Positions 1,014 to 64,000 of a DNA stretch of 64,000 bases are shown piece after piece (position 1 is the stretch's first letter; every line of letters begins with the position of its first letter). Source of the DNA: Crossaster papposus (taxonomy: Eukaryota > Echinodermata > Asteroidea > Velatida > Solasteridae); contig JBAIAA010000261.1 of assembly GCA_037893245.1 (NCBI GenBank), positions 2,356,001 through 2,420,000 of the forward strand, in the 5' to 3' direction. Both the position numbers and the translations under genes were made by a program. Under the pieces are notes generated by a model that saw only the letters and a program-made list of their open reading frames with translations, did not search any database and had not been told where the DNA came from.

Positions 1014-1165
1014 GTATGTTAGAGAGCAATCGCAGAATACCCCGCCACGCAAAAGTAAGCGAAGAGCCGCAGAGAAGAGAATATCACGAGAGGGCGCAGT
1101 TTTTCCCAGCAAACAATGTCGTAAACAAAAATCGTAGAGCGCCCGGTATCAATCAATGACCATAG

Positions 1166-24324: not shown

Positions 24325-24794
24325 CAAAATGCATCTGTTTTGGAGAAGCTGCATTATTTTCGTTTGCTGCCCTCTGTTGTTAAATTTTATATACTCAGGA
24401 AGTCCATTGACCCAGCTTACCAATGGTGTATAATGCATGTGGGGTTTCCATCACGATTTTCTGAGAAAAAAACAACGCAACAATTTTTTTGTTGGGGGGT
24501 GGGGACAAAATATCACCATTAATCATGGCTGATCGTAACGCGGAAATACTAGCATAGTTATTTGCCGAAGGTGACTCCGATATTTTTTTTTAAAAAGAAG
24601 TCTATATCACGTGGCTGTCGTCCTTACAGCAATACTCTGTTCCTTGCTCTATGGTATTATACAGGACAATATTTAAAAACCATCTTCATTGAAAGGTACT
24701 GCATTATTTTGTATTTACTTGTACTTACAAAATAGAAATCTATTGTTTTTTGTACCAAGCTTATTTTATTTTTGTTTTTGATTCTGCGTTACAG
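24325..24794 (+). other. Intron end and left junction of the HYR array
   Basis: Unique sequence gives way at about 24575 to the array spacer (AAAAAGAAGTCTATATCAC, then GGCTGTCGTCCTTACAG). Compared with every later spacer there is an extra segment of about 33 bases at about 24631-24661 within the CCTTACAGGACAATATT block. The acceptor is GCGTTACAG ending at 24794. Confidence 0.6.
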
Positions 24795-25067
24795 ATGAAG
24801 AAAGCCCTAACATCACATGTCCCGAGTCAGTCACGGATATGTTTACGGATATGGGAGTTTCGAGTGCTGTAGTTGAGTGGTCACAAGAACCATCGGCTAC
24901 TGATAATGTGGATGACTTAACTGCAAGTAACATAACTTGTACCGATGATTCTGGCAAACTGGTGATGTCAAATGGCACATTCAATTTGGGCACAACGACA
25001 GTCACGTGCAATGTGTCTGATGCAGCTGAGAATTCAGACAATTGCACATTCAAGATCACAATCCTTG
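24795..25067 (+). CDS. HYR (hyalin repeat) domain exon, copy 1
   Basis: The exon is 273 nt in phase 1-1: a split-codon Asp, 90 full codons and one base of the next Gly codon. HYR features over residues 1-91: PNITCP at the start, V-E-W near residue 29, P-x-A-x-D at 33-37, Cys at 9, 49, 72 and 84, G-T-T-x-V-x-C before the third Cys, and a closing CTFKITIL strand. HYR is an immunoglobulin-like fold used in cell adhesion and matrix proteins such as sea-urchin hyalin. Residues N6, N46, N60 and N83 are in N-x-T sequons. This first copy is the most distinct: N73 replaces D73, creating a fifth sequon (NVS), and codon 81 is TCA rather than TCG. Divergence at the array edge is typical of tandem arrays. 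Confidence 0.96.
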
Positions 25068-25959
25068 GTAAGAGAGATAGTGGTTCTCTATTCTCGATTG
25101 ACCGTTTTTGCTGCATTTTCTATTTTAATTAGAGATATGCAAGCAGTGAATGCTGATGGTTACAATAAATTTGGCAAATCAGTTGGAGAAGAATCACTGA
25201 TTGAACTTGATGGCATATGCCAAACATTAGGTTTTTAAACAGTTCGCAGCAATCTTTTCAAAAATTACGCTTGTAATACCAACCTTCTACAATCGCTGAC
25301 AGTATGTTATGCAAACATCCATTCTTCTCATAACCTGCTCGTTGCTTTTTACTGTCTCCTTGCATGCTTTTGCGTCTTGATTAGCATAGAAATGATACTT
25401 ATTAACAGAGCACAGTATTTTGGTCAAAAACATCAGGCAAATGGACGGTTTATTTATTTTTTCATTTTCTTTTAAAAAGAAGTCTATTATATCACCTGGC
25501 TGTCGTCCGGATTAAACTCGGTGGCATATGCCAAACATTAGGTTTTTAAACAGTTCACAGCAATTTTTTCAAAAATTATCCTTGTAATACCAACCTACAA
25601 TCGCTCACAGTACCTTATGCAAACATTTATTCTTCTCATAACCTGCTCGTTGTTTTTTACTGTCTCCTTGATTGCTTTTGCGTCTTTAATTAGCATTGAA
25701 ATGGTACTTATTAATATAGAGCACAGTATTTTAGTCAAAAAACTTCAGGCAAAATAATAGTTGGTTCATTTATTTATTTATTCATTTTTTTTTTAAAGTC
25801 TCTTATATCACCTGGCTGTCGTCCTTACAGGACAATATTAAAAACCATCTTTAATGAAAGGTACTGCATTATTTTGTATTTACTTGTACTTACAAAATAG
25901 AAATCTATTGTTTTTTGTACCAAGCTTATTTTATTTTTGTTTTTGATTCTGCGTTGCAG
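25068..25959 (+). repeat. Reference long spacer with two intronic sub-repeats
   Basis: After the donor comes a conserved block that could be read as an exon-like frame (25135-25238), then sub-repeat 1 and sub-repeat 2 of about 310 bp. Both sub-repeats contain the palindrome GGCATATGCC, a GTTTTTAAACAGTTC block, a CATAACCTGCTCGTT block and a T-rich tract, and end ATCACCTGGCTGTCGTCC. A TTTA microsatellite precedes the end of sub-repeat 2. The last 150 bases before the acceptor (from about CAATATTAAAAACCATC) occur once per unit and appear almost unchanged in all 37 units. Confidence 0.85.
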
Positions 25960-26232
25960 ATGAAGAAAGCCCTAACATCACATGTCCCGAGTCAGTCACG
26001 GATATGTTTACGGATATGGGAGTTTCGAGTGCTGTAGTTGAGTGGTCACAAGAACCATCGGCTACTGATAATGTGGATGACTTAACTGCAAGTAACATAA
26101 CTTGTACCGATGATTCTGGCAAACTGGTGATGTCAAATGGCACATTCAATTTGGGCACAACGACAGTCACGTGCGATGTGTCTGATGCAGCTGAGAATTC
26201 GGACAATTGCACATTCAAGATCACAATCCTTG
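25960..26232 (+). CDS. HYR domain exon, copy 2
   Basis: Matches the array consensus protein (T18, E11, D73). The acceptor reads GCGTTGCAG, not GCGTTACAG, a mark shared only with copies 3 and 4. It begins a run of three units spaced exactly 849 bp apart. Confidence 0.96.
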
Positions 26233-26808
26233 GTAAGAGAGATAGTGGTTCTCTATTCTCGATTAACCGTTTTTGCTGCATTTTCTATTTTACTTAGAGA
26301 TATGCAAGCAGTGAATGCTGATGGTTACAATAAATTTGGCAAATCAGTTGGAGAAGAATCACTGATTGAACTTGATGGCATATGCCAAACATTAGGTTTT
26401 TAAACAGTTCGCAGCAATCTTTTCGAAAATTACGCTTGTAATACCAACCTACAATCGCTCACAGTACGTTATGCAAACATTTATTCTTCTCATAACCTGC
26501 TCGTTGCTTTTTACTGTCTCCTTGATTGCTTTTGCGTCTTTAATTAGCATTGAAATGATACTTATTAATATAGAGCACAGTATTTTGGTCAAAAAACTTC
26601 AGGCAAAATAATAGTTGGTTTATTTATTTATTTATTTTTTAAAAGTCTCTTATATCACCTGGCTGTCGTCCTACTACAGGACAATATTAAAAACCATCTT
26701 TAATGAAAGGTACTGCATTATTTTGTATTTACTTGTACTTACAAAATAGAAATCTATTGTTTTTTGTACCAAGCTTATTTTATTTTTGTTTTTGATTCTG
26801 CGTTGCAG

Positions 26809-27081
26809 ATGAAGAAAGCCCTAACATCACATGTCCCGAGTCAGTCACGGATATGTTTACGGATATGGGAGTTTCGAGTGCTGTAGTTGAGTGGTCACAA
26901 GAACCATCGGCTACTGATAATGTGGATGACTTAACTGCAAGTAACATAACTTGTACCGATGATTCTGGCAAACTGGTGATGTCAAATGGCACATTCAATT
27001 TGGGCACAACGACAGTCACGTGCGATGTGTCTGATGCAGCTGAGAATTCGGACAATTGCACATTCAAGATCACAATCCTTG
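26809..27081 (+). CDS. HYR domain exon, copy 3
   Basis: Appears identical to copy 2 in exon and flanks, including the GTTGCAG acceptor, so the 849-bp unit was duplicated very recently. Confidence 0.96.
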
Positions 27082-27657
27082 GTAAGAGAGATAGTGGTTC
27101 TCTATTCTCGATTAACCGTTTTTGCTGCATTTTCTATTTTACTTAGAGATATGCAAGCAGTGAATGCTGATGGTTACAATAAATTTGGCAAATCAGTTGG
27201 AGAAGAATCACTGATTGAACTTGATGGCATATGCCAAACATTAGGTTTTTAAACAGTTCGCAGCAATCTTTTCGAAAATTACGCTTGTAATACCAACCTA
27301 CAATCGCTCACAGTACGTTATGCAAACATTTATTCTTCTCATAACCTGCTCGTTGCTTTTTACTGTCTCCTTGATTGCTTTTGCGTCTTTAATTAGCATT
27401 GAAATGATACTTATTAATATAGAGCACAGTATTTTGGTCAAAAAACTTCAGGCAAAATAATAGTTGGTTTATTTATTTATTTATTTTTTAAAAGTCTCTT
27501 ATATCACCTGGCTGTCGTCCTACTACAGGACAATATTAAAAACCATCTTTAATGAAAGGTACTGCATTATTTTGTATTTACTTGTACTTACAAAATAGAA
27601 ATCTATTGTTTTTTGTACCAAGCTTATTTTATTTTTGTTTTTGATTCTGCGTTGCAG

Positions 27658-27930
27658 ATGAAGAAAGCCCTAACATCACATGTCCCGAGTCAGTCACGGA
27701 TATGTTTACGGATATGGGAGTTTCGAGTGCTGTAGTTGAGTGGTCACAAGAACCATCGGCTACTGATAATGTGGATGACTTAACTGCAAGTAACATAACT
27801 TGTACCGATGATTCTGGCAAACTGGTGATGTCAAATGGCACATTCAATTTGGGCACAACGACAGTCACGTGCGATGTGTCTGATGCAGCTGAGAATTCGG
27901 ACAATTGCACATTCAAGATCACAATCCTTG
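27658..27930 (+). CDS. HYR domain exon, copy 4
   Basis: Last of the GTTGCAG-acceptor trio. Its downstream spacer switches to the long class with two sub-repeats. Confidence 0.96.
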
Positions 27931-28825
27931 GTAAGAGAGATAGTGGTTCTCTATTCTCGATTAACCGTTTTTGCTGCATTTTCTATTTTACTTAGAGATA
28001 TGCAAGCAGTGAATGCTGATGGTTACAATAAATTTGGCAAATCAGTTGGAGAAGAATCACTGATTGAACTTGATGGCATATGCCAAACATTAGGTTTTTA
28101 AACAGTTCGCAGCAATCTTTTCAAAAATTACGCTTGTAATACCAACCTTCTACAATCGCTGACAGTATGTTATGCAAACATTTATTCTTCTCATAACCTG
28201 CTCGTTTCATTTTTACTGTCTCCTTGCATGCTTTTGCGTCTTTGATTAGCATAGAAATGATACTTATTAACAGAGCACAGTATTTTGGTCAAAAACGTCA
28301 GGCAAATGGACGGTTTATTTATTTTTTCATTTTTTTTAAAAAGAAGTCTATTATATCACCTGGCTGTCGTCCGGATTAAACTCGGTGGCATATGCCAAAC
28401 ATTAGGTTTTTAAACAGTTCGCAGCAATTTTTTCAAAAATTACGCTTGTAATACCAACCTACAATCGCTCACAGTACGTTATGCAAACATTTATTCTTCT
28501 CATAACCTGCTCGTTGTTTTTTTACTGTCTCCTTGATTGCTTTTGCGTCTTTAATTAGCATTGAAATGATACTTATTAATATAGAGCACAGTATTTCGGT
28601 CAAAAAACTTCAGGCAAAATAATAGTTGGTTTATTTATTTATTTATTCATTTTTTTTTTTAAAGTCTCTTATATCACCTGGCTTTCGTCCTTACAGGACA
28701 ATATTAAAAACCATCTTTAATGAAAGGTACTGCATTATTTTGTATTTACTTGTACTTACAAAATAGAAATCTATTGTTTTTTGTACCAAGCTTATTTTAT
28801 TTTTGTTTTTGATTCTGCGTTACAG

Positions 28826-29098
28826 ATGAAGAAAGCCCTAACATCACATGTCCCAAGTCAGTCACGGATATGTTTACGGATATGGGAGTTTCGAGTGCTG
28901 TAGTTGAGTGGTCACAAGAACCATCGGCTACTGATAATGTGGATGACTTAACTGCAAGTAACATAACTTGTACCGATGATTCTGGCAAACTGGTGATGTC
29001 AAATGGCACATTCAATTTGGGCACAACGACAGTCACGTGCGATGTGTCTGATGCAGCTGAGAATTCGAACAATTGCACATTCAAGATCACAATCCTTG
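28826..29098 (+). CDS. HYR domain exon, copy 5
   Basis: Carries K11 in place of E11 and N82 in place of D82 (SNNCTF). The N83 sequon is kept. Its downstream intron is the only one with a transposon insertion (29163-29819), 64 bases after the donor. Confidence 0.96.
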
Positions 29099-29162
29099 GT
29101 AAGAGAGATAGTGGTTCTCTATTCTCGATTAACCGTTTTTGCTGCATTTTCTATTTTACTTA

Positions 29163-29819
29163 GGGGCCGTCCAAAGTTTTCAACATTTTAATGGTCGTAC
29201 AAAGCGTACGACGGGGGGAGGGGGGTCGGAGGCCGCGTACGACTTTAAATTGTGAATAAAATGTTGATTTTGTACCGTACAATCAGCAAAAGGTAATTAT
29301 ATAATTGGTTTTGTTTCCTTCTTTTTTTTATCTCGAAAGAATTTTCAACGTTAAAATCAGAAGCGATACAAAGTCCGCTGTTCAAAAATGATTGCTTCGG
29401 CAGGTATAACAGCTATTGTGCAACTCCGAGAAAAAACCCCGATGCGTCCCTGGCTAGCTATACGTAGCTTGCCAGGATGAGATACTTTTGACGCCGCCCG
29501 CACTACATGCCGCGGCGACCGAGTTGTCAATGATTTTGTATAGCGCAACGTTAACCATGCGGTGTACATACACACATTGATGCCCTAGCCCTGAATAAGC
29601 GCCCGAATGTGCCAAACGTGAATGAATAACCTTTGAAACGACTGTACTGCGACTCGTTCCCACAGCTGTGCATGGACATCGTGCACGCAATGCCCCACCG
29701 CGCCCTACCGGTGTTTGGACTAAATGTTGAAAAGTACTACTTTGGGGGGAGGGAGGGGGGTCTTGAAAAGTAGTACGCTCTGTACGACCTTAAAAATGTT
29801 GACAACTTTGGACGGCCCT
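29163..29819. mobile_element. Non-autonomous TIR DNA transposon in the intron after HYR copy 5
   Basis: The ends are inverted repeats of about 37 bp: GGGCCGTCCAAAGTTTTCAA on the left and TTGACAACTTTGGACGGCCC on the right, continuing to GGTCGTAC/GTACGACC. TTA at 29160-29162 and 29820-29822 forms a 3-bp target duplication, while all other units have a single CTTAGAGATATG at this place. Just inside each end is a GGGGGGAG-type purine run in the same orientation. At 657 bp with no transposase it is a MITE. The TTA duplication fits the PIF/Harbinger superfamily, but the assignment is tentative. Confidence 0.85.
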
Positions 29820-30643
29820 TTAGAGATATGCAAGCAGTGAATGCTGATGGTTACAATAAATTTGGCAAATCAGTTGGAGAAGAATCACTGATTGAACTTG
29901 ATGGCATATGCCAAACATTAGGTTTTTAAACAGTTCGCAGCAATCTTTTCGAAAATTACGCTTGTAATACCAACCTTCTACAATCGCTGACAGTATGTTA
30001 TGCAAACATTTATTCTTCTCATAACCTGCTTGTTTCATTTTTACTGTCTCCTTGCATGCTTTTGCGTCTTTGATTAGCATAGAAATGATACTTATTAACA
30101 GAGCACAGTATTTTGGTCGAAAAACGTCAGGCAAATGGACGGTTTATTTATTTTTTCATTTTTTTTTTTAAAGAAGTCTATTATATCACCTGGCTGTCGT
30201 CCAGATTGAACTCGGTGGCATATGCCAAACATTAGGTTTTTAAACAGTTCGCAGCAATTTTTTCAAAAATTACGCTTGTAATACCAACCTACAATCGCTC
30301 ACAGTACGTTATGCAAACATTTATTCTACTCATAACCTGCTCGTTGTTTTTTACTGTCTCCTTGATTGCTTTTGCGTCTTTAATTAGCATTGAAATGATA
30401 CTTATTAATATAGAGCACAGTATTTTGGTCAAAAAACTTCAGGCAAAATAATAGTTGGTTTATTTTATTTTATTTTATTTATTTTTTTAAGTCTCTTATA
30501 TCACCTGGCAGTCGTCCTTACATAAAAACCATCTTTAATGAAAGGTACTGCATTATTTTGTATTTACTTGTACTTACAAAATAGAAATCTATTGTTTTTT
30601 GTACCAAGCTTATTTTATTTTTGTTTTTGATTCTGCGTTACAG

Positions 30644-30916
30644 ATGAAGAAAGCCCTAACATCACATGTCCCGAGTCGGTCACGGATATGTTTACGGATA
30701 TGGGAGTTTCGAGTGCTGTAGTTGAGTGGTCACAAGAACCATCGGCTACTGATAATGTGGATGACTTAACTGCAAGTAACATAACTTGTACCGATGATTC
30801 TGGCAAACTGGTGATGTCAAATGGCACATTCAATTTGGGCACAACGACAGTCACGTGCGATGTGTCTGATGCAGCTGAGAATTCGGACAATTGCACATTC
30901 AAGATCACAATCCTTG
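30644..30916 (+). CDS. HYR domain exon, copy 6
   Basis: Consensus protein; a silent change at S12 (TCG) is private to this copy. It is followed by a short 859-bp unit. The upstream spacer has a longer TTTTA run in place of TTTA. Confidence 0.96.
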
Positions 30917-31502
30917 GTAAGAGAGATAGTGGTTCTCTATTCTCGATTAACCGTTTTTGCTGCATTTTCTATTTTACTTAGAGATATGCAAGCAGTGAAT
31001 GCTGATGGTTACAATAAATTTGGCAAATCAGTTGGAGAAGAATCACTGATTGAACTTGATGGCATATGCCAAACATTAGGTTTTTAAACAGTTCGCAGCA
31101 ATCATTTCGAAAATTACGCTTGTAATACCAACCTTCTACAATCGCTGACAGTATGTTATGCAAACATTTATTCTTCTCATAACCTGCTCGTTTCATTTTT
31201 ACTGTCTCCTTGATTGCTTTTGCGTCTTTGATTAGCATTGAAATGATACTTATTAATATAGAGCACAGTATTTTGGTCCAAAAACTTCAGGCAAAATAAT
31301 AGTTGGTTTATTTATTTATTTATTTTTTATTTTTTTTAAAGTCTCTTATATCACCTGGCTGTCGTCCTTACAGGACAATATTAAAAACCATCTTTAATGA
31401 AAGGTACTGCATTATTTTGTATTTACTTGTACTTACAAAATAGAAATCTATTGTTTTTTGTACCAAGCTTATTTTATTTTTGTTTTTGATTCTGCGTTAC
31501 AG

Positions 31503-31775
31503 ATGAAGAAAGCCCTAACATCACATGTCCCGAGTCAGTCACGGATATGTTTACGGATATGGGAGTTTCGAGTGCTGTAGTTGAGTGGTCACAAGAACCG
31601 TCGGCTACTGATAATGTGGATGACTTAACTGCAAGTAACATAACTTGTACCGATGATTCTGGCAAACTGGTGATGTCAAATGGCACATTCAATTTGGGCA
31701 CAACGACAGTCACGTGCGATGTGTCTGATGCAGCTGAGAATTCGGACAATTGCACATTCAAGATCACAATCCTTG
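31503..31775 (+). CDS. HYR domain exon, copy 7
   Basis: First copy with the silent P33 codon CCG, which marks the A type. It opens an A-B dimer series with period 2336 bp (copies 7 to 11). Confidence 0.96.
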
Positions 31776-32671
31776 GTAAGAGAGATAGTGGTTCTCTATT
31801 CTCGATTGACCGTTTTTGCTGCATTTTCTATTTTACTTAGAGATATGCAAGCAGTGAATGCTGATGGTTACAATAAATTTGGCAAATCAGTTGGAGAAGA
31901 ATCACTGATTGAACTTGATGGCATATGCCAAACATTAGGTTTTTAAACAGTTCGCAGCAATCATTTCGAAAATTACGCTTGTAATACCAACCTTCTACAA
32001 TCGCTGACAGTATGTTATGCAAACATTTATTCTTCTCATAACCTGCTCGTTTCATTTTTACTGTCTCCTTGCATGCTTTTGCGTCTTTGATTAGCATAGA
32101 AATGATACTTATTAACAGAGCACAGTATTTTGGTCGAAAAACGTCAGGCAAATGGACGGTTTATTTATTTTTTCATTTTTTTTTTAATGAAGTCTATTAT
32201 ACCACCTGGCTGTCGTCCAGATTGAACTCGGTGGCATATGCCAAACATTAGGTTTTTAAACAGTTCGCAGCAATTTTTTCAAAAAATTACGCTTGTAATA
32301 CCAACCTACAATCGCTCACAGTACGTTATGCAAACATTTATTCTACTCATAACCTGCTCGTTGTTTTTTACTGTCTCCTTGATTGCTTTTGCGTCTTTAA
32401 TTAGCATTGAAATGATACTTATTAATATAGAGCACAGTATTTTGGTCAAAAAACTTCAGGCAAAATAATAGTTGGTTTATTTATTTATTTATTCATTTTG
32501 TTTTTTAAAGTCTCTTATATCACCTGGCTGTCGTCCTTACAGGACAATATTAAAAACCATCTTTAATGAAAGGTACTGCATTATTTTGTATTTACTTGTA
32601 CTTACAAAATAGAAATCTATTGTTTTTTGTACCAAGCTTATTTTATTTTTGTTTTTGATTCTGCGTTACAG

Positions 32672-32944
32672 ATGAAGAAAGCCCTAACATCACATGTCCC
32701 GAGTCAGTCACGGATATGTTTTCGGATATGGGAGTTTCGAGTGCTGTAGTTGAGTGGTCACAAGAACCATCGGCTACTGATAATGTGGATGACTTAACTG
32801 CAAGTAACATAACTTGTACCGATGATTCTGGCAAACTGGTGATGTCAAATGGCACATTCAATTTGGGCACAACGACAGTCACGTGCGATGTGTCTGATGC
32901 AGCTGAGAATTCGGACAATTGCACATTCAAGATCACAATCCTTG
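32672..32944 (+). CDS. HYR domain exon, copy 8
   Basis: B type: S18 replaces T18 (MFSDMG) and P33 is CCA. The following spacer has GTTCGAAGCAATCTTTTAG, seen after the other B copies too. Confidence 0.96.
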
Positions 32945-33838
32945 GTAAGAGAGATAGTGGTTCTCTATTCTCGATTAACCGTTTTTGCTGCATTTTCTAT
33001 TTTACTTAGAGATATGCAAGCAGTGAATGCTGATGGTTACAATAAATTTGGCAAATCAGTTGGAGAAGAATCACTGATTGAACTTGATGGCATATGCCAA
33101 ACATTAGGTTTTTAAACAGTTCGAAGCAATCTTTTAGAAAATTACCCTTGTAATACCAACCTTCTACAATCGCTGACAGTATGTTATGCAAACATCCATT
33201 CTTCTCATAACCTGCTCGTTTTATTTTTACTGTCTCCTTGCATGCTTTTGCGTCTTTGATTAGCATAGAAATGATACTTATTAACAGAGCACAGTATTTT
33301 GGTCAAAAACGTCAGGCAAATGGACGGTTTATTTATTTTTTCATTTTTTTTAAAAAGAAGTCTATTATATCACCTGGCTGTCGTCCGGATTAAACTCGGT
33401 GGCATATGCCAAACATTAGGTTTTTAAACAGTTCGCAGCAATTTTTTCAAAAATTACGCTTGTAATACCAACCTACAATCGCTCACAGTACGTTATGCAA
33501 ACATTTATTCTTCTCATAACCTGCTCGTTGTTTTTTACTGTCTCCTTGATTGCTTTTGCGTCTTTAATTAGCATTGAAATGGTACTTATTAATATAGAGC
33601 ACAGTATTTTAGTCAAAAAACTTCAGGCAAAATAATAGTTGGTTTATTTATTTATTTATTTTTTATTTTTTTTAAAGTCTCTTATATCACCTGGCTGTCG
33701 TCCTTACAGGACAATATTAAAAACCATCTTTAATGAAAGGTACTGCATTATTTTGTATTTACTTGTACTTACAAAATAGAAATCTATTGTTTTTTGTACC
33801 AAGCTTATTTTATTTTTGTTTTTGATTCTGCGTTACAG

Positions 33839-34111
33839 ATGAAGAAAGCCCTAACATCACATGTCCCGAGTCAGTCACGGATATGTTTACGGATATGGGA
33901 GTTTCGAGTGCTGTAGTTGAGTGGTCACAAGAACCGTCGGCTACTGATAATGTGGATGACTTAACTGCAAGTAACATAACTTGTACCGATGATTCTGGCA
34001 AACTGGTGATGTCAAATGGCACATTCAATTTGGGCACAACGACAGTCACGTGCGATGTGTCTGATGCAGCTGAGAATTCGGACAATTGCACATTCAAGAT
34101 CACAATCCTTG
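33839..34111 (+). CDS. HYR domain exon, copy 9
   Basis: A type (CCG, T18), 2336 bp after copy 7, with matching flanks. Confidence 0.96.
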
Positions 34112-35007
34112 GTAAGAGAGATAGTGGTTCTCTATTCTCGATTGACCGTTTTTGCTGCATTTTCTATTTTACTTAGAGATATGCAAGCAGTGAATGCTGA
34201 TGGTTACAATAAATTTGGCAAATCAGTTGGAGAAGAATCACTGATTGAACTTGATGGCATATGCCAAACATTAGGTTTTTAAACAGTTCGCAGCAATCAT
34301 TTCGAAAATTACGCTTGTAATACCAACCTTCTACAATCGCTGACAGTATGTTATGCAAACATTTATTCTTCTCATAACCTGCTCGTTTCATTTTTACTGT
34401 CTCCTTGCATGCTTTTGCGTCTTTGATTAGCATAGAAATGATACTTATTAACAGAGCACAGTATTTTGGTCGAAAAACGTCAGGCAAATGGACGGTTTAT
34501 TTATTTTTTCATTTTTTTTTTAATGAAGTCTATTATACCACCTGGCTGTCGTCCAGATTGAACTCGGTGGCATATGCCAAACATTAGGTTTTTAAACAGT
34601 TCGCAGCAATTTTTTCAAAAAATTACGCTTGTAATACCAACCTACAATCGCTCACAGTACGTTATGCAAACATTTATTCTACTCATAACCTGCTCGTTGT
34701 TTTTTACTGTCTCCTTGATTGCTTTTGCGTCTTTAATTAGCATTGAAATGATACTTATTAATATAGAGCACAGTATTTTGGTCAAAAAACTTCAGGCAAA
34801 ATAATAGTTGGTTTATTTATTTATTTATTCATTTTGTTTTTTAAAGTCTCTTATATCACCTGGCTGTCGTCCTTACAGGACAATATTAAAAACCATCTTT
34901 AATGAAAGGTACTGCATTATTTTGTATTTACTTGTACTTACAAAATAGAAATCTATTGTTTTTTGTACCAAGCTTATTTTATTTTTGTTTTTGATTCTGC
35001 GTTACAG

Positions 35008-35280
35008 ATGAAGAAAGCCCTAACATCACATGTCCCGAGTCAGTCACGGATATGTTTTCGGATATGGGAGTTTCGAGTGCTGTAGTTGAGTGGTCACAAG
35101 AACCATCGGCTACTGATAATGTGGATGACTTAACTGCAAGTAACATAACTTGTACCGATGATTCTGGCAAACTGGTGATGTCAAATGGCACATTCAATTT
35201 GGGCACAACGACAGTCACGTGCGATGTGTCTGATGCAGCTGAGAATTCGGACAATTGCACATTCAAGATCACAATCCTTG
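35008..35280 (+). CDS. HYR domain exon, copy 10
   Basis: B type (S18, CCA), exactly 2336 bp after copy 8. Confidence 0.96.
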
Positions 35281-52722: not shown

Positions 52723-53308
52723 GTAAGAGAGATAGTGGTTCTCTATTCTCGATTAACCGTTTTTGCTGCATTTTCTATTTTACTTAGAGATATGCAAGCA
52801 GTGAATGCTGATGGTTACAATAAATTTGGCAAATCAGTTGGAGAAGAATCACTGATTGAACTTGATGGCATATGCCAAACATTAGGTTTTTAAACAGTTC
52901 GCAGCAATCATTTCGAAAATTACGCTTGTAATACCAACCTTCTACAATCGCTGACAGTATGTTATGCAAACATTTATTCTTCTCATAACCTGCTCGTTTC
53001 ATTTTTACTGTCTCCTTGCATGCTTTTGCGTCTTTGATTAGCATTGAAATGATACTTATTAATATAGAGCACAGTATTTTGGTCAAAAAACTTCAGGCAA
53101 AATAATAGTTGGTTTATTTATTTATTTATTCATTTTTTTTTTAAAGTCTCTTATATCACCTGGCTGTCGTCCTAACCAGGACAATATTAAAAACCATCTT
53201 TAATGAAAGGTACTGCATTATTTTGTATTTACTTGTACTTACAAAATAGAAATCTATTGTTTTTTGTACCAAGCTTATTTTATTTTTGTTTTTGATTCTG
53301 CGTTACAG

Positions 53309-53581
53309 ATGAAGAAAGCCCTAACATCACATGTCCCGAGTCAGTCACGGATATGTTTACGGATATGGGAGTTTCGAGTGCTGTAGTTGAGTGGTCACAA
53401 GAACCATCGGCTACTGATAATGTGGATGACTTAACTGCAAGTAACATAACTTGTACCGATGATTCTGGCAAACTGGTGATGTCAAATGGCACATTCAATT
53501 TGGGCACAACGACAGTCACGTGCGATGTGTCTGATGCAGCTGAGAATTCGGACAATTGCACATTCAAGATCACAATCCTTG
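53309..53581 (+). CDS. HYR domain exon, copy 27
   Basis: Consensus protein. The spacer after it is the first of the 1072-1073 class, with a 95-bp deletion joined at GCAATCATTACTGTC (about 53763). Confidence 0.96.
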
Positions 53582-54381
53582 GTAAGAGAGATAGTGGTTC
53601 TCTATTCTCGATTAACCGTTTTTGCTGCATTTTCTATTTTACTTAGAGATATGCAAGCAGTGAATGCTGATGGTTACAATAAATTTGGCAAATCAGTTGG
53701 AGAAGAATCACTGATTGAACTTGATGGCATATGCCAAACATTAGGTTTTTAAACAGTTCGCAGCAATCATTACTGTCTCCTTGCATGCTTTTGCGTCTTT
53801 GATTAGCATAGAAATGATACTTATTAACAGAGCACAGTATTTTGGTCGAAAAACGTCAGGCAAATGGACGGTTTATTTATTTTTTCATTTTTTTTTTAAA
53901 AAGAAGTCTATTATATCACCTGGCTGTCGTCCAGATTGAACTCGGTGGCATATGCCAAACATTAGGTTTTTAAACAGTTCACAGCGTTCTTAAAAAAATT
54001 ATCCTTGTAATACCAACCTACAATCGCTCACAGTACGTTATGCAAACATTTATTCTTCTCATAACCTGCTCGTTGTTTTTTACTGTCTCCTTGATTGCTT
54101 TTGCGTCTTTAATTAGCATTGAAATGATACTTATTGATATAGAGCACAGTATTTTGGTCAAAAACTTCAGGCAAAATAATAGTTGGTTTATTTATTTATT
54201 TATTCATTTTTTTTTTTAAGTCTCTTATATCACCTGGCTGTCGTCCTTACAGGACAATATTAAAAACCATCTTTAATGAAAGGTACTGCATTATTTTGTA
54301 TTTACTTGTACTTACAAAATAGAAATCTATTGTTTTTTGTACCAAGCTTATTTTATTTTTGTTTTTGATTCTGCGTTACAG

Positions 54382-54654
54382 ATGAAGAAAGCCCTAACAT
54401 CACATGTCCCGAGTCAGTCACGGATATGTTTACGGATATGGGAGTTTCGAGTGCTGTAGTTGAGTGGTCACAAGAACCATCGGCTACTGATAATGTGGAT
54501 GACTTAACTGCAAGTAACATAACTTGTACCGATGATTCTGGCAAACTGGTGATGTCAAATGGCACATTCAATTTGGGCACAACGACAGTCACGTGCGATG
54601 TGTCTGATGCAGCTGAGAATTCGGACAATTGCACATTCAAGATCACAATCCTTG
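54382..54654 (+). CDS. HYR domain exon, copy 28
   Basis: Consensus protein, flanked on both sides by 1072-1073 class spacers. Confidence 0.96.
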
Positions 54655-55453
54655 GTAAGAGAGATAGTGGTTCTCTATTCTCGATTAACCGTTTTTGCTG
54701 CATTTTCTATTTTACTTAGAGATATGCAAGCAGTGAATGCTGATGGTTACAATAAATTTGGCAAATCAGTTGGAGAAGAATCACTGATTGAACTTGATGG
54801 CATATGCCAAACATTAGGTTTTTAAACAGTTCGCAGCAATCATTACTGTCTCCTTGCATGCTTTTGCGTCTTTGATTAGCATAGAAATGATACTTATTAA
54901 CAGAGCACAGTATTTTGGTCAAAAACGTCAGGCAAATGGACGGTTTATTTATTTTTTCATTTTTTTTAAAAAGAAGTCTATTATATCACCTGGCTGTCGT
55001 CCGGATTAAACTCGGTGGCATATGCCAAACATTAGGTTTTTAAACAGTTCGCAGCAATTTTTTTTAAAATTACGCTTGTAATACCAACCTACAATCGCTC
55101 ACAGTACGTTATGCAAACATTTATTCTTCTCATAACCTGCTCGTGGTTTTTTACTGTCTCCTTGATTGCTTTTGCGTCTTTAATTAGCATTGAAATGATA
55201 CTTATTAATATAGAGCACAGTATTTCGGTCAAAAAACTTCAGGCAAAATAATAGTTGGTTTATTTATTTATTTATTCATTTTTTTTTTAAAGTCTCTTAT
55301 ATCACCTGGCTGTCGTCCTTACAGGACAATATTAAAAACCATCTTTAATGAAAGGTACTGCATTATTTTGTATTTACTTGTACTTACAAAATGGAAATCT
55401 ATTGTTTTTTGTACCAAGCTTATTTTATTTTTGTTTTTGATTCTGCGTTACAG

Positions 55454-55726
55454 ATGAAGAAAGCCCTAACATCACATGTCCCAAGTCAGTCACGGATATG
55501 TTTACGGATATGGGAGTTTCGAGTGCTGTAGTTGAGTGGTCACAAGAACCATCGGCTACTGATAATGTGGATGACTTAACTGCAAGTAACATAACTTGTA
55601 CGGATGATTCTGGCAAACTGGTGATGTCAAATGGTACATTCAATTTGGGCACAACGACAGTCACGTGCGATGTGTCTGATGCAGCTGAGAATTCGGACAA
55701 TTGCACATTCAAGATCACAATCCTTG
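55454..55726 (+). CDS. HYR domain exon, copy 29
   Basis: K11, with two silent marks: T50 as ACG and G61 as GGT. The same combination returns in copy 35. Confidence 0.96.
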
Positions 55727-56526
55727 GTAAGAGAGATAGTGGTTCTCTATTCTCGATTAACCGTTTTTGCTGCATTTTCTTTTTTACTTAGAGATATGCA
55801 AGCAGTGAATGCTGATGGTTACAATAAATTTGGCAAATCAGTTGGAGAAGAATCACTGATTGAACTTGATGGCATATGCCAAACATTAGGTTTTTAAACA
55901 GTTCGCAGCAATCATTACTGTCTCCTTGCATGCTTTTGCGTCTTTGATTAGCATAGAAATGATACTTATTAACAGAGCACAGTATTTTGGTCAAAAACGT
56001 CAGGCAAATGGACGGTTTATTTATTTTTTCATTTTTTTTTTAAAGAAGTCTATTATATCACCTGGCTGTCGTCCGGATTAAACTCGGTGGCATATGCCAA
56101 ACATTAGGTTTTTAAACAGTTCGCAGCAATTTTTTTTTAAATTACGCTTGTAATACCAACCTACAATCGCTCACAGTACGTTATGCAAACATTTATTCTT
56201 CTCATAACCTGCTCGTTGTTTTTTACTGTCTCCTTGATTGCTTTTGCGTCTTTAATTAGCATTGAAATGATACTTATTAATATAGAGCACAGTATTTTGG
56301 TCCAAAAACTTCAGGCAAAATAATAGTTGGTTTATTTATTTATTTATTCATTTTGTTTTTTAAAGTCTCTTATATCACCTGGCTGTCGTCCTTACAGGAC
56401 AATATTAAAAACCATCTTTAATGAAAGGTACTGCATTATTTTGTATTTACTTGTACTTACAAAATAGAAATCTATTGTTTTTTGTACCAAGCTTATTTTA
56501 TTTTTGTTTTTGATTCTGCGTTACAG

Positions 56527-56799
56527 ATGAAGAAAGCCCTAACATCACATGTCCCAAGTCAGTCACGGATATGTTTACGGATATGGGAGTTTTGAGTGCT
56601 GTAGTTGAGTGGTCACAAGAACCATCGGCTACTGATAATGTGGATGACTTAACTGCAAGTAACATAACTTGTACCGATGATTCTGGCAAACTGGTGATGT
56701 CAAATGGCACATTCAATTTGGGCACAACGACAGTCACGTGCGATGTGTCTGATGCAGCTGAGAATTCGGACAATTGCACATTCAAGATCACAATCCTTG
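56527..56799 (+). CDS. HYR domain exon, copy 30
   Basis: K11 plus a private L23 in place of S23. The following intron is also slightly different (AACCTTTTTTGCTGAATT). It is one of the more diverged copies. Confidence 0.96.
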
Positions 56800-57379
56800 G
56801 TAAGAGAGATAGTGGTTCTCTATTCTCGATTAACCTTTTTTGCTGAATTTTCTATTTTACTTAGAAATATGCAAGCAGTGAATGCTGATGGTTACAATAA
56901 ATTTGGCAAATCAGTTGGAGAAGAATCACTGATTGAACTTGATGGCATATGCCAAACATTAGGTTTTTAAACAGTTCGCAGCAATCTTTTCGAAAATTAC
57001 GCTTGTAATACCAACCTACAATCGCTGACAGTACGTTATGCAAACATTTATTCTTCTCATAACCTGCTCGTTGTTTTTTACTGTCTCCTTGATTGCTTTT
57101 GCGTCTTTAATTAGCATTGAAATGATACTTATTGATATAGAGCACAGTATTTTGGTCAAAAACTTCAGGCAAAATAATAGTTGGTTTATTTATTTATTTA
57201 TTCATTTTTTTTTTTAAGTCTCTTATATCACCTGGCTGTCGTCCTTACAGGACAATATTAAAAACCATCTTTAATGAAAGGTACTGCATTATTTTGTATT
57301 TACTTGTACTTACAAAATAGAAATCTATTGTTTTTTGTACCAAGCTTATTTTATTTTTGTTTTTGATTCTGCGTTACAG

Positions 57380-57652
57380 ATGAAGAAAGCCCTAACATCA
57401 CATGTCCCGAGTCAGTCACGGATATGTTTACGGATATGGGAGTTTCGAGTGCTGTAGTTGAGTGGTCACAAGAACCATCGGCTACTGATAATGTGGATGA
57501 CTTAACTGCAAGTAACATAACTTGTACCGATGATTCTGGCAAACTGGTGATATCAAATGGCACATTCAATTTGGGCACAACGACAGTCACGTGCGATGTG
57601 TCTGATGCAGCTGAGAATTCGGACAATTGCACATTCAAGATCACAATCCTTG
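57380..57652 (+). CDS. HYR domain exon, copy 31
   Basis: Private I58 in place of M58. Its spacer is the longest without a transposon (unit 1385 bp, three sub-repeats) and has two private changes, GATCGCATATGCC and GGTTTTCAAAC. Confidence 0.96.
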
Positions 57653-58764
57653 GTAAGAGAGATAGTGGTTCTCTATTCTCGATTAACCGTTTTTGCTGCA
57701 TTTTCTTTTTTACTTAGAGATATGCAAGCAGTGAATGCTGATGGTTACAATAAATTTGGCAAATCAGTTGGAGAAGAATCACTGATTGAACTTGATCGCA
57801 TATGCCAAACATTAGGTTTTCAAACAGTTCGCAGCAATCATTACTGTCTCCTTGCATGCTTTTGCGTCTTTGATTAGCATAGAAATGATACTTATTAACA
57901 GAGCACAGTATTTTGGTCAAAAACGTCAGGCAAATGGACGGTTTATTTATTTTTTCATTTTTTTTTTAAAGAAGTCTATTATATCACCTGGCTGTCGTCC
58001 GGATTAAACTCGGTGGCATATGCCAAACATTAGGTTTTTAAACAGTTCGCAGCAATTTTTTTTAAAATTACGCTTGTAATACCAACCTTCTACAATCGCT
58101 GACAGTATGTTATGCAAACATTTATTCTTCTCATAACCTGCTCGTTTCATTTTTACTGTCTCCTTGCATGCTTTTGCGTCTTTGAATAGCATAGAAATGA
58201 TACTTATTAACAGAGCACAGTATTTTGGTCGAAAAACGTCAGGCAAATGGACGGTTTATTTATTTTTTCATTTTTTTTTTAAAAAGAAGTCTATTATATC
58301 ACCTGGCTGTCGTCCAGATTGAACTCGGTGGCATATGCCAAACATTAGGTTTTTAAACAGTTCACAGCGTTCTTAAAAAAATTATCCTTGTAATACCAAC
58401 CTACAATCGCTGACAGTACGTTATGCAAACATTTATTCTTCTCATAACCTGCTCGTTGTTTTTTACTGTCTCCTTGATTGCTTTTGCGTCTTTAATTAGC
58501 ATTGAAATGATACTTATTGATATAGAGCACAGTATTTTGGTCAAAAACTTCAGGCAAAATAATAGTTGGTTTATTTATTTATTTATTCGTTTTTTTTTTT
58601 AAGTCTCTTATATCACCTGGCTGTCGTCCTTACAGGACAATATTAAAAACCATCTTTAATGAAAGGTACTGCATTATTTTGTATTTACTTGTACTTACAA
58701 AATAGAAATCTATTGTTTTTTGTACCAAGCTTATTTTATTTTTGTTTTTGATTCTGCGTTACAG

Positions 58765-59037
58765 ATGAAGAAAGCCCTAACATCACATGTCCCGAGTCAG
58801 TCACGGATATGTTTACGGATATGGGAGTTTCGAGTGCTGTAGTTGAGTGGTCACAAGAACCATCGGCTACTGATAATGTGGATGACTTAACTGCAAGTAA
58901 CATAACTTGTACCGATGATTCTGGCAAACTGGTGATGTCAAATGGCACATTCAATTTGGGCACAACGACAGTCACGTGCGATGTGTCTGATGCAGCTGAG
59001 AATTCGGACAATTGCACATTCAAGATCACAATACTTG
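58765..59037 (+). CDS. HYR domain exon, copy 32
   Basis: Consensus protein; private silent I90 as ATA. Confidence 0.96.
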
Positions 59038-59836
59038 GTAAGAGAGATAGTGGTTCTCTATTCTCGATTAACCGTTTTTGCTGCATTTTCTATTTTACTT
59101 AGAGATATGCAAGCAGTGAATGCTGATGGTTACAATAAATTTGGCAAATCAGTTGGAGAAGAATCACTGATTGAACTTGATGGCATATGCCAAACATTAG
59201 GTTTTTAAACAGTTCGCAGCAATCATTACTGTCTCCTTGCATGCTTTTGCGTCTTTGATTAGCATAGAAATGATACTTATTAACAGAGCACAGTATTTTG
59301 GTCAAAAACGTCAGGCAAATGGACGGTTTATTTATTTTTTCATTTTTTTTTAAAAGAAGTCTATTATATCACCTGGCTGTCGTCCGGATTAAACTCGGTG
59401 GCATATGCCAAACATTAGGTTTTTAAACAGTTCGCAGCAATTTTTTTTAAAATTACGCTTGTAATACCAACCTACAATCGCTCACAGTACGTTATGCAAA
59501 CATTTATTCTTCTCATAACCTGCTCGTGGTTTTTTACTGTCTCCTTGATTGCTTTTGCGTCTTTAATTAGCATTGAAATGATACTTATTAATATAGAGCA
59601 CAGTATTTCGGTCAAAAAACTTCAGGCAAAATAATAGTTGGTTTATTTATTTATTTATTCATTTTTTTTTTAAAGTCTCTTATATCACCTGGCTGTCGTC
59701 CTTACAGGACAATATTAAAAACCATCTTTAATGAAAGGTACTGCATTATTTTGTATTTACTTGTACTTACAAAATGGAAATCTATTGTTTTTTGTACCAA
59801 GCTTATTTTATTTTTGTTTTTGATTCTGCGTTACAG

Positions 59837-60109
59837 ATGAAGAAAGCCCTAACATCACATGTCCCAAGTCAGTCACGGATATGTTTACGGAAATGGGAGT
59901 TTCGAGTGCTGTAGTTGAGTGGTCACAAGAACCATCGGCTACTGATAATGTGGATGACTTAACTGCAAGTAACATAACTTGTACAGATGATTCTGGCAAA
60001 CTGGTGATGTCAAATGGTACATTCAATTTGGGCACAACGACAGTCACGTGCGATGTGTCTGATGCAGCTGAGAATTCGGACAATTGCACATTCAAGATCA
60101 CAATCCTTG
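59837..60109 (+). CDS. HYR domain exon, copy 33
   Basis: K11 and a private E19 in place of D19; T50 as ACA and G61 as GGT. First member of a 1925-bp dimer (copies 33-34, repeated as 35-36). Confidence 0.96.
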
Positions 60110-60689
60110 GTAAGAGAGATAGTGGTTCTCTATTCTCGATTAACCGTTTTTGCTGCATTTTCTTTTTTACTTAGAGATATGCAAGCAGTGAATGCTGATG
60201 GTTACAATAAATTTGGCAAATCAGTTGGAGAAGAATCACTGATTGAACTTGATGGCATATGCCAAACATTAGGTTTTTAAACAGTTCGCAGCAATCTTTT
60301 CGAAAATTACGCTTGTAATACCAACCTACAATCGCTGACAGTACGTTATGCAAACATTTATTCTTCTCATAACCTGCTCGTTGTTTTTTACTGTCTCCTT
60401 GATTGCTTTTGCGTCTTTAATTAGCATTGAAATGATACTTATTGATATAGAGCACAGTATTTTGGTCAAAAACTTCAGGCAAAATAATAGTTGGTTTATT
60501 TATTTATTTATTCATTTTTTTTTTTAAGTCTCTTATATCACCTGGCTGTCGTCCTTACAGGACAATATTAAAAACCATCTTTAATGAAAGGTACTGCATT
60601 ATTTTGTATTTACTTGTACTTACAAAATAGAAATCTATTGTTTTTTGTACCAAGCTTATTTTATTTTTGTTTTTGATTCTGCGTTACAG

Positions 60690-60962
60690 ATGAAGAAAGC
60701 CCTAACATCACATGTCCCGAGTCAGTCACGGATATGTTTACGGATATGGGAGTTTCGAGTGCTGTAGTTGAGTGGTCACAAGAACCATCGGCTACTGATA
60801 ATGTGGATGACTTAACTGCAAGTAACATAACTTGTACCGATGATTCTGGCAAACTGGTGATGTCAAATGGTACATTCAATTTGGGCACAACGACAGTCAC
60901 GTGCGATGTGTCTGATGCAGCTGAGAATTCGGACAATTGCACATTCAAGATCACAATCCTTG
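60690..60962 (+). CDS. HYR domain exon, copy 34
   Basis: E11 with G61 as GGT. The intron after the donor has ATTAACTGTTTTTG, a mark shared with copies 36 and 37. Confidence 0.96.
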
Positions 60963-61761
60963 GTAAGAGAGATAGTGGTTCTCTATTCTCGATTAACTGT
61001 TTTTGCTGCATTTTCTTTTTTACTTAGAGATATGCAAGCAGTGAATGCTGATGGTTACAATAAATTTGGCAAATCAGTTGGAGAAGAATCACTGATTGAA
61101 CTTGATGGCATATGCCAAACATTAGGTTTTTAAACAGTTCGCAGCAATCATTACTGTCTCCTTGCATGCTTTTGCGTCTTTGATTAGCATAGAAATGATA
61201 CTTATTAACAGAGCACAGTATTTTGGTCAAAAACGTCAGGCAAATGGACGGTTTATTTATTTTTTCATTTTTTTTTAAAAGAAGTCTATTATATCACCTG
61301 GCTGTCGTCCGGATTAAACTCGGTGGCATATGCCAAACATTAGGTTTTTAAACAGTTCGCAGCAATTTTTTTTAAAATTACGCTTGTAATACCAACCTAC
61401 AATCGCTCACAGTACGTTATGCAAACATTTATTCTTCTCATAACCTGCTCGTGGTTTTTTACTGTCTCCTTGATTGCTTTTGCGTCTTTAATTAGCATTG
61501 AAATGATACTTATTAATATAGAGCACAGTATTTCGGTCAAAAAACTTCAGGCAAAATAATAGTTGGTTTATTTATTTATTTATTCATTTTTTTTTTAAAG
61601 TCTCTTATATCACCTGGCTGTCGTCCTTACAGGACAATATTAAAAACCATCTTTAATGAAAGGTACTGCATTATTTTGTATTTACTTGTACTTACAAAAT
61701 GGAAATCTATTGTTTTTTGTACCAAGCTTATTTTATTTTTGTTTTTGATTCTGCGTTACAG

Positions 61762-62034
61762 ATGAAGAAAGCCCTAACATCACATGTCCCAAGTCAGTCA
61801 CGGATATGTTTACGGATATGGGAGTTTCGAGTGCTGTAGTTGAGTGGTCACAAGAACCATCGGCTACTGATAATGTGGATGACTTAACTGCAAGTAACAT
61901 AACTTGTACGGATGATTCTGGCAAACTGGTGATGTCAAATGGTACATTCAATTTGGGCACAACGACAGTCACGTGCGATGTGTCTGATGCAGCTGAGAAT
62001 TCGGACAATTGCACATTCAAGATCACAATCCTTG
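61762..62034 (+). CDS. HYR domain exon, copy 35
   Basis: K11, T50 ACG, G61 GGT; 1925 bp after copy 33, from which it differs at E19/D19 and the T50 codon. Confidence 0.96.
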
Positions 62035-62614
62035 GTAAGAGAGATAGTGGTTCTCTATTCTCGATTAACCGTTTTTGCTGCATTTTCTTTTTTACTTAGA
62101 GATATGCAAGCAGTGAATGCTGATGGTTACAATAAATTTGGCAAATCAGTTGGAGAAGAATCACTGATTGAACTTGATGGCATATGCCAAACATTAGGTT
62201 TTTAAACAGTTCGCAGCAATCTTTTCGAAAATTACGCTTGTAATACCAACCTACAATCGCTGACAGTACGTTATGCAAACATTTATTCTTCTCATAACCT
62301 GCTCGTTGTTTTTTACTGTCTCCTTGATTGCTTTTGCGTCTTTAATTAGCATTGAAATGATACTTATTGATATAGAGCACAGTATTTTGGTCAAAAACTT
62401 CAGGCAAAATAATAGTTGGTTTATTTATTTATTTATTCATTTTTTTTTTTAAGTCTCTTATATCACCTGGCTGTCGTCCTTACAGGACAATATTAAAAAC
62501 CATCTTTAATGAAAGGTACTGCATTATTTTGTATTTACTTGTACTTACAAAATAGAAATCTATTGTTTTTTGTACCAAGCTTATTTTATTTTTGTTTTTG
62601 ATTCTGCGTTACAG

Positions 62615-62887
62615 ATGAAGAAAGCCCTAACATCACATGTCCCGAGTCAGTCACGGATATGTTTACGGATATGGGAGTTTCGAGTGCTGTAGTTGAGTGG
62701 TCACAAGAACCATCGGCTACTGATAATGTGGATGACTTAACTGCAAGTAACATAACTTGTACCGATGATTCTGGCAAACTGGTGATGTCAAATGGTACAT
62801 TCAATTTGGGCACAACGACAGTCACGTGCGATGTGTCTGATGCAGCTGAGAATTCGGACAATTGCACATTCAAGATCACAATCCTTG
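62615..62887 (+). CDS. HYR domain exon, copy 36
   Basis: Matches copy 34 at 1925 bp. The spacer that follows has a second deletion of about 79 bp joined at ACAATCGCTTTAATTAGC (about 63325). Confidence 0.96.
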
Positions 62888-63607
62888 GTAAGAGAGATAG
62901 TGGTTCTCTATTCTCGATTAACTGTTTTTGCTGCATTTTCTTTTTTACTTAGAGATATGCAAGCAGTGAATGCTGATGGTTACAATAAATTTGGCAAATC
63001 AGTTGGAGAAGAATCACTGATTGAACTTGATGGCATATGCCAAACATTAGGTTTTTAAACAGTTCGCAGCAATCATTACTGTCTCCTTGCATGCTTTTGC
63101 GTCTTTGATTAGCATAGAAATGATACTTATTAACAGAGCACAGTATTTTGGTCAAAAACGTCAGGCAAATGGACGGTTTATTTATTTTTTCATTTTTTTT
63201 TAAAAGAAGTCTATTATATCACCTGGCTGTCGTCCGGATTAAACTCGGTGGCATATGCCAAACATTAGGTTTTTAAACAGTTCGCAGCAATTTTTTTTTA
63301 AATTACGCTTGTAATACCAACCTACAATCGCTTTAATTAGCATTGAAATGATACTTATTAATATAGAGCACAGTATTTTGGTCCAAAAACTTCAGGCAAA
63401 ATAATAGTTGGTTTATTTATTTATTTATTCATTTTGTTTTTTAAAGTCTCTTATATCACCTGGCTGTCGTCCTTACAGGACAATATTAAAAACCATCTTT
63501 AATGAAAGGTACTGCATTATTTTGTATTTACTTGTACTTACAAAATAGAAATCTATTGTTTTTTGTACCAAGCTTATTTTATTTTTGTTTTTGATTCTGC
63601 GTTACAG

Positions 63608-63880
63608 ATGAAGAAAGCCCTAACATCACATGTCCCAAGTCAGTCACGGATATGTTTACGGATATGGGAGTTTCGAGTGCTGTAGTTGAGTGGTCACAAG
63701 AACCATCGGCTACTGATAATGTGGATGACTTAACTGCAAGTAACATAACTTGTACCGATGATTCTGGCAAACTGGTGATGTCAAATGGTACATTCAATTT
63801 GGGCACAACGACAGTCACGTGCGATGTGTCTGATGCAGCTGAGAATTCGGACAATTGCACATTCAAGATCACAATCCTTG
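63608..63880 (+). CDS. HYR domain exon, copy 37, last in window
   Basis: K11 with G61 as GGT. The donor and the start of the next spacer are intact and the array evidently continues beyond the window. Confidence 0.96.
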
Positions 63881-64000
63881 GTAAGAGAGATAGTGGTTCT
63901 CTATTCTCGATTAACTGTTTTTGCTGCATTTTCTTTTTTACTTAGAGATATGCAAGCAGTGAATGCTGATGGTTACAATAAATTTGGCAAATCAGTTGGA

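Follow-up and report, generated by a model that had tools for sequence, protein, structure and literature searches.

A homogenised array of HYR-domain exons in the sea star Crossaster papposus, probable core of a giant hyalin-type extracellular glycoprotein gene

Introduction

Genes with homogenised internal repeats are already known as a kind, with human LPA, abalone VERL and spider AcSp1 among them, and these systems provide the background for the locus considered here, an array of near-identical exons encoding HYR domains in the sea star Crossaster papposus. The array (hereafter HYR-A, for its 273-bp exon) lies within a stretch of 64,000 nucleotides, positions 2356001-2420000 of contig JBAIAA010000261.1 (C261) in GenBank assembly GCA_037893245.1 (1.02 Gb, 1841 contigs). 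This stretch is called the window, and it was read together with 60 kb on its 5' side and 110 kb on its 3' side, or 234 kb in total. With a probability of roughly 0.7, HYR-A would be the core of a gene for a giant extracellular glycoprotein of the hyalin type, its repeats homogenised by unequal exchange and gene conversion while purifying selection acts on the protein.

In LPA, one repeat unit comprises the exons and introns for a single kringle. The kringle IV type 2 repeat consists of 5.6-kb coding units present at 1-40 per allele, and identical units have been suggested in some of the larger alleles (PMC11462820). As far as that account describes it, LPA is the closest system in mechanism, being likewise a protein-coding tandem repeat of large, similar units; HYR-A differs in its domain and phylum, in having one exon per domain, and in being one of several arrays in its genome. 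In addition, length polymorphism has been measured for LPA, whereas HYR-A is known from one assembly, in which no second haplotype of the array was seen (best 40 of 81 and best 150 of 1521 candidates scored). Abalone VERL has 22 repeats, of which repeats 3-22 are homogenised (95% or more identical in nucleotides within one allele), and repeats 1 and 2 evolve apart (PMC2704960). So described, it resembles HYR-A as a long extracellular repeat protein with homogenised repeats, and differs in its domain and in having a described role in fertilisation, whereas the role of HYR-A is predicted from sequence.

Intragenic homogenisation of DNA has also been described for spider AcSp1, with a mean identity of 98.7%, functional constraint, and end repeats that are less alike (PMC3933166). 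On that description, HYR-A is similar in being homogenised under constraint and in possessing a diverged end copy (copy 57), and it differs in that its repeats are separate exons and do not encode silk. The silk repeats of AcSp1 are not known to be separate exons with introns.

Hyalin, for its part, is secreted into the hyaline layer and undergoes calcium-dependent gelation. It has been described as a large glycoprotein built from hyalin repeats and making up an extraembryonic matrix; the S. purpuratus assembly contains 21 hyalin genes (PMC9382459, PMC11212366). HYR-A is likened to sea-urchin hyalin and echinoderm HYR proteins through their HYR domains, by description and not by sequence, and it is set apart from the hyalin accounts in that joint homogenisation of exon and intron goes unmentioned in the excerpts of those accounts. 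Among the titles and abstract openings listed from the open-licence literature, none reported homogenised HYR exon arrays, and what appears to be new is the hyalin-type domain, the number of units, the adjacency of arrays of different HYR subtypes, and the recurrence of such arrays in one genome.

The HYR-A array

Searching the window with the first array exon recovered 37 intact 273-bp exons between positions 24795 and 63880, all on the + strand, every one of them with an ag acceptor, a gtaaga donor and no stop, and together comprising 15 distinct DNA sequences. Read in the frame that the phase-1 junction imposes, the exon encodes 91 residues, and the three array exons scanned singly all matched HYR (Pfam PF02494) at 46.0-47.2 bits (E ~4e-12; cut-off 21.7). 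The original prediction had been of 37 near-identical HYR exons in an array of about 39 kb, variable at only seven amino-acid positions. The exons are present as described, and the seven positions (residues 11, 18, 19, 23, 58, 73 and 82) are exact, both for the 37 window copies and for all 56 copies of the full array. The predicted extent covers only part of the array, which does not end at position 64000 but comprises 56 near-identical copies in all, followed by a divergent 57th at C261:2440290 (window coordinate 84290). The further 19 copies beyond the window also have open frames and ag and gtaaga edges. The features of the array within the window are as follows.

24795..63880, + strand, portion of the HYR-A array inside the window, 37 exons with introns, continuing outside the window
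24795..25067, + strand, HYR exon 1
25960..26232, + strand, HYR exon 2
26809..27081, + strand, HYR exon 3
27658..27930, + strand, HYR exon 4
28826..29098, + strand, HYR exon 5
29164..29819, no strand, insertion of ~656 bp in the sole 1545-bp intron, 3' of exon 5, with a 4-bp overlap of two intron matches
30644..30916, + strand, HYR exon 6
31503..31775, + strand, HYR exon 7
32672..32944, + strand, HYR exon 8
33839..34111, + strand, HYR exon 9
35008..35280, + strand, HYR exon 10
36175..36447, + strand, HYR exon 11
37342..37614, + strand, HYR exon 12
38510..38782, + strand, HYR exon 13
39369..39641, + strand, HYR exon 14
40535..40807, + strand, HYR exon 15
41702..41974, + strand, HYR exon 16
42870..43142, + strand, HYR exon 17
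43729..44001, + strand, HYR exon 18
44897..45169, + strand, HYR exon 19
46064..46336, + strand, HYR exon 20
47233..47505, + strand, HYR exon 21
48397..48669, + strand, HYR exon 22
49566..49838, + strand, HYR exon 23
50733..51005, + strand, HYR exon 24
51591..51863, + strand, HYR exon 25
52450..52722, + strand, HYR exon 26
53309..53581, + strand, HYR exon 27
54382..54654, + strand, HYR exon 28
54710..64000, + strand, 9,226-bp nine-exon block, first copy and start of the second (exact match at window coordinates 54710-64193)
55454..55726, + strand, HYR exon 29
56527..56799, + strand, HYR exon 30
57380..57652, + strand, HYR exon 31
58765..59037, + strand, HYR exon 32
59837..60109, + strand, HYR exon 33
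60690..60962, + strand, HYR exon 34
61762..62034, + strand, HYR exon 35
62615..62887, + strand, HYR exon 36
63608..63880, + strand, HYR exon 37

Start-to-start spacing of the units is mostly 0.85-1.4 kb. The introns fall into length classes of ~580, 720, 800, 894 and 1112 bp, with single cases of 1545 and 1851 bp, and a repeated segment of ~310 bp is the building block of these classes; the 4-bp overlap at the insertion after exon 5 suggests a target-site duplication. The donor region has one form in all 56 copies, and the 15 nucleotides 5' of the exon have two (53 and 3 copies). Since the units are phase 1-1, gain or loss of a unit keeps the reading frame. Over the 56 copies there are eight protein variants, the commonest of which accounts for 28, and in a protein search of the whole genome, with the best 150 of 1521 candidates scored, matches of at least 98% numbered 56 and were all on C261.

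Open frames of ~117-130 codons also occur on the minus strand, antisense to the HYR exons, between window positions 24769 and 63941, and these are read as a probable by-product of the exon sequence.

Coding constraint and homogenisation

Across the 56 copies, 7 changes in the exon are non-synonymous and 8 are synonymous (with two at a single third position), which gives a ratio of non-synonymous to synonymous polymorphism (pN/pS) of 0.25 (Fisher p 0.006); such tests are indicative, because the copies share ancestry and the sites are not independent. Units 5 and 56 have unusual introns, and in the other 54 of the 56 units codon positions 1, 2 and 3 have mean diversities of 0.0078, 0.0008 and 0.0143, respectively, relative to 0.014 in the first 131 nucleotides of intron on the 3' side and 0.021 in the 240 nucleotides before the exon, with a lower value (0.0084) in the last 150 of these. 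Codon position 3 thus varies about as much as nearby intron, and position 2 about 18-fold less. Judged by this pattern of variation, the HYR-A array is coding and under purifying selection. A simple non-coding satellite was ruled out by the codon-position diversity and the pN/pS of 0.25. The term "coding satellite" applied by the original prediction fits the turnover of the array and does not fit its constraint, the unit being a selected exon.

The trait that characterises homogenised repeats of the LPA and VERL kind, identity within the array above that to relatives, was found here in exon and intron. Array exons are at least 97.8% identical to a reference copy, whereas relatives on contigs C418 and C56 reach 88-89% (exon with adjoining intron). 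In the protein search, the next best matches after the array (84-89%) were on these same two contigs, and relatives on C99, C310 and C709 are 81-82% alike. Homogenisation of the adjoining intron is roughly as strong as that of the third codon position. Whole introns are less uniform, with 38 distinct introns versus 16 distinct exon sequences among the 56 units, and the proposal that exon and intron are homogenised together accordingly stands for the adjoining intron only. Neighbouring exons are more alike than in shuffled order (p 0.004).

The assembly does contain the nested unit structure that had been proposed. Two adjacent blocks of 9,226 bp, one made up of units 29-37 and the other of units 38-46 (nine exons each), are exact repeats with an identical run of 9,484 bp, and no other exact repeat from window coordinate 24.5 kb to 145 kb is longer than 3.1 kb. 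The perfect block would stem from a very recent duplication or from an error of assembly, and because it may be assembly inflation, a cautious exon count is 47. At the far edge, copy 57 has 38 mismatches to the array, just 2 of them in nucleotides 103-238, and none of 5000 permutations was as uneven. The 5' part of this copy instead resembles a relative on C310, and the resulting mosaic would be the expected trace of a conversion tract at the array edge.

Flanking exons and a second array

Upstream of HYR-A, the window holds a series of exons for EGF-like domains, listed below.

909..1030, + strand, EGF-like exon upstream, EGF_CA 29.1 bits (cut-off 27), 3' end approximate
4892..5020, + strand, EGF_CA exon, phase 1-1, E 4.5e-10
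6350..6459, + strand, short EGF-like exon, below the Pfam cut-off, 3' end approximate
12939..13067, + strand, EGF_CA exon, phase 1-1, E 6.1e-08
15945, EGF fragment
16794..16922, + strand, EGF_CA exon, phase 1-1, E 1.1e-09
18384..18494, + strand, short EGF-like exon, same EGF stretch as that at 6350, 3' end approximate
21762..21887, + strand, EGF_CA exon, phase 1-1, E 2e-12, nearest EGF exon found upstream of the HYR array

Five of the six exons scanned singly exceeded the EGF_CA cut-off, the exception being that at 6350 (the exon at 18384 was not among the six), and the four with clear edges (4892, 12939, 16794 and 21762) have phase-1 junctions like the HYR exons. The EGF exons were not part of the original prediction, and the second array and the recurrence of such arrays lay beyond the stretch on which it was based.

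Downstream of HYR-A lies a second array, HYR-B, with a 264-bp phase-1 exon in 18 copies and one divergent copy, from window coordinate 88034 to ~142660 (C261:2444034-2498662). It contains blocks of up to 13.8 kb at 99.3% identity, and its 18 copies comprise 6 distinct sequences. A profile-profile comparison matched HYR-B with HYR-A at E 6e-10 (10-row and 4-row alignments).

Pfam scans covered the + strand of the upstream 60 kb, C261:2440001-2460000 and C261:2498601-2530000; no terminal domain was identified in these intervals, and the latter two gave no SEA domain, which in receptors of the EBR1 type comes after the HYR run together with a transmembrane domain. Among phase-1 exon candidates 3' of HYR-A, there were just the HYR-like repeat and short frames lacking a donor. 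The sub-cut-off Pfam matches 3' of the array were to KH_KRR1_1st and Filamin, the latter on an HYR-like exon.

The upstream part of the window also carries repeats of other types. A 13-bp tandem unit, GTGATACCGCACG, occurs in ~33 copies at 12475-12902 with 98% matches, and arrays of a 17-18-bp motif (TAATTCGGATGCTTTTT) are found in both orientations at 3474-3910, 7539-7876, 8522-8722, 15449-15603 and 19588-19954. The latter sit inside a mosaic of long duplicated blocks; for example, 5418-8111 and 17466-20146 are 92.6% alike, with one short EGF-like exon in each. Finally, 6751-7249 and 18806-19277, each of ~500 bp, match their own reverse complements at 80-83%, in the manner of a fold-back element.

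Other HYR arrays in the genome

A PF02494 search of the genome gave 1966 first-look candidates, and all of the best 150, which were scored, exceeded the cut-off; there was no match in 14 control genomes, the controls named in another search being prokaryotes. Among the candidates scored, C154 shows regular HYR spacings of 1226 bp and ~3093 bp. A further HYR array, with an exact 417-bp period, is present on both C849 and C533, with 53 units on each. Six of 61 unit sequences are common to the two, and each has its own block duplications. Over all 53 units, the two arrays appear slightly closer at equal position than at other offsets by simple comparison, and over the inner 47 of 53 (three dropped per end) there was no positional signal (p 0.35). 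Their near left flanks are 99.3-100% alike, and the right flank matches in pieces at 86-97%. Further out on the left, at a distance of 28 kb, a 1.5-kb piece is 86% alike; its only full-length second match is on C533, so that the two contigs are collinear on this side. The two arrays may be alleles or a segmental duplicate. They offer the one comparison within this genome for the predicted change of array length, and with equal counts they would seem not to vary freely in length, or else to undergo conversion while their unit number stays constant.

Units of yet another HYR-like type, the third, repeat every 1082 bp over C99:645763-736826 (~85 units by spacing, not by count) and recur at C261:2756319-2821792; this type is 49% identical to HYR-B. 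Its last C261 copy, among the copies listed, is ~2 kb from the contig end. C99 (773,666 bp) seems to share sequence with C261 at the latter's far end, but as it stops ~26 kb beyond the copy common to both, it should fall short of the HYR-A array. Across HYR loci, unit sizes are 417, mostly 850-1390, 1082, 1226, 1350-4440 and ~3090 bp. It is tempting to suppose that the HYR family repeatedly gives rise to homogenised coding arrays, which would amount to a reservoir, spread across the genome, of extracellular proteins that vary in length. Individuals would then differ in the size of these proteins, and selection would act on it, perhaps in egg coats or allorecognition. We consider this a speculative and rather improbable extension.

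As a separate observation on the assembly, COX1-like open frames without stops occur at C8:5208663-5210009 and C8:2872001-2873343; the contig is 5.2 Mb long or longer and possibly bacterial. In COX1 of the mitochondrial contig (16,330 bp), AAA stands for Asn, ATA for Ile, AGA for Ser and TGA for Trp, judged by conserved residues. Immediately before COX1, on the opposite strand, are frames recognised as ND2 and ND1, with tRNA-Ile and most of a tRNA cluster, which is the gene order of sea stars. Together with a bindin exon, this code and order indicate a sea star.

The encoded protein and alternative explanations

The commonest HYR-A domain has an isoelectric point of 4.05, with 17 acidic and 2 basic residues and four cysteines. 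There are four N-glycosylation sequons per domain and five in one copy, amounting to 225 in the 56 domains, which sum to ~539 kDa before glycans. The combination seen in hyalin-type proteins is present, with 56 + 1 HYR exons in tandem and EGF_CA exons in the same phase, and it bears out the predicted extracellular modular protein. We infer that EGF, HYR-A and HYR-B exons would be joined in one transcript, and that the protein would be secreted, function in a matrix, bind calcium and be polymorphic in length.

In the mechanism that we propose, one exon encodes one 91-residue HYR domain, and exon and adjoining intron would duplicate as a unit. Unequal exchange and gene conversion would keep the units near-identical, and purifying selection would clear amino-acid changes; with each phase-1 unit added or lost, the frame would be kept and only the length of the protein would change. 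The product may act in an extracellular coat, either as an elongated glycosylated rod or by forming a gel, with the hyaline layer, the egg coat, and a mucus or adhesive secretion as candidate sites. Given the matrix role of hyalin and the presence of hyalin and EGF-like domains in sea-star adhesive proteins (hyalin domains in Sfp5 and Sfp7, and EGF-like domains too in Sfp7; PMC9382459), a structural coat or secretion protein appears the most likely use. A PDB sequence search returned three weak matches up to E 10, the best being a bone sialoprotein-binding protein chain (E 0.0031).

Several results weigh against a single giant gene of this type. HYR-B is called HYR-like only, because the one copy scanned had no match to Pfam HYR up to E 10 and its profile match is to HYR-A. 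No Pfam domain was found on the + strand of the upstream 60 kb, nor a signal peptide or first exon, and on the + strand of the ~31 kb from the last HYR-B copy (C261:2498601-2530000) only reverse transcriptase, RNase H and integrase were identified. No last exon was found in the flanks, nor, with no search aimed at it, a transmembrane segment; the last HYR-B exon has a donor site, and another HYR-B-like exon lies at C261:2534443, outside the stretch read. An AlphaFold model of the single HYR-A domain without alignment reached a predicted local distance difference test (pLDDT) score of 51 and was not used. The EGF, HYR-A and HYR-B exons could belong to more than one gene. The locus might be a cluster of smaller HYR genes, or exons shared by alternative splicing as a reservoir of domains, as the gene ends missing from the scanned flanks and the spread of HYR-type exons over hundreds of kb of C261 would allow; any subset of symmetric phase-1 exons can splice in frame. 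The regular introns of the array (576-1545 bp) and its uniform splice signals speak against such an arrangement, which we hold to be unlikely, if worth keeping in mind. A gamete or self/non-self recognition protein, in which repeat number and sequence are the selected trait, is doubtful as well. It has precedents in the concerted evolution of VERL repeats 3-22 (PMC2704960) and in EBR1_5, a putative sea-urchin egg receptor described with seven HYR domains, three of them under positive selection (PMC5521101), and a bindin exon is present in the sea-star genome. Against it, HYR-A variation is under purifying constraint, with a single protein in half of the copies, and the scanned flanks lack a SEA domain.

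The remaining alternatives concern whether the array is genuine and in use. Inflation of the copy number by the assembly, through expansion of a smaller array or the joining of two haplotypes end to end, would account for the identity of the adjacent 9,226-bp blocks, and because another HYR-like array has its last listed copy so near the end of C261, HYR arrays may trouble the assembler. Yet HYR-A is internal to a contig of 2.8 Mb, of which the 234 kb examined contain no N, and it has 38 distinct introns, one private insertion and 16 exon alleles in non-random order; outside the one block, moreover, its exact repeats are short. Inflation is thus improbable, and a pure artefact for the whole array was rejected as unlikely on the distinct introns and the non-random exon order, with the exact 9.2-kb block as a possible exception. 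Least credible is a coding-derived satellite that is no longer expressed, with frames left open as homogenisation spreads intact copies; homogenisation by itself does keep copies alike, but the contrast between second and third codon positions and the retention of open frames and splice dinucleotides in 56 of 56 copies make this a very remote prospect. The core of a giant hyalin-type glycoprotein gene, homogenised under purifying selection, remains the reading that we favour.

Conclusions

The HYR-A array allows concerted evolution of exon and intron and purifying selection to be read in one DNA, with neutral sites alongside. Because such arrays recur in one genome, comparison of several loci can address what causes them. 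Should animals differ in repeat number, HYR-A would be to invertebrates what the LPA repeat is to humans, here within an extracellular protein.

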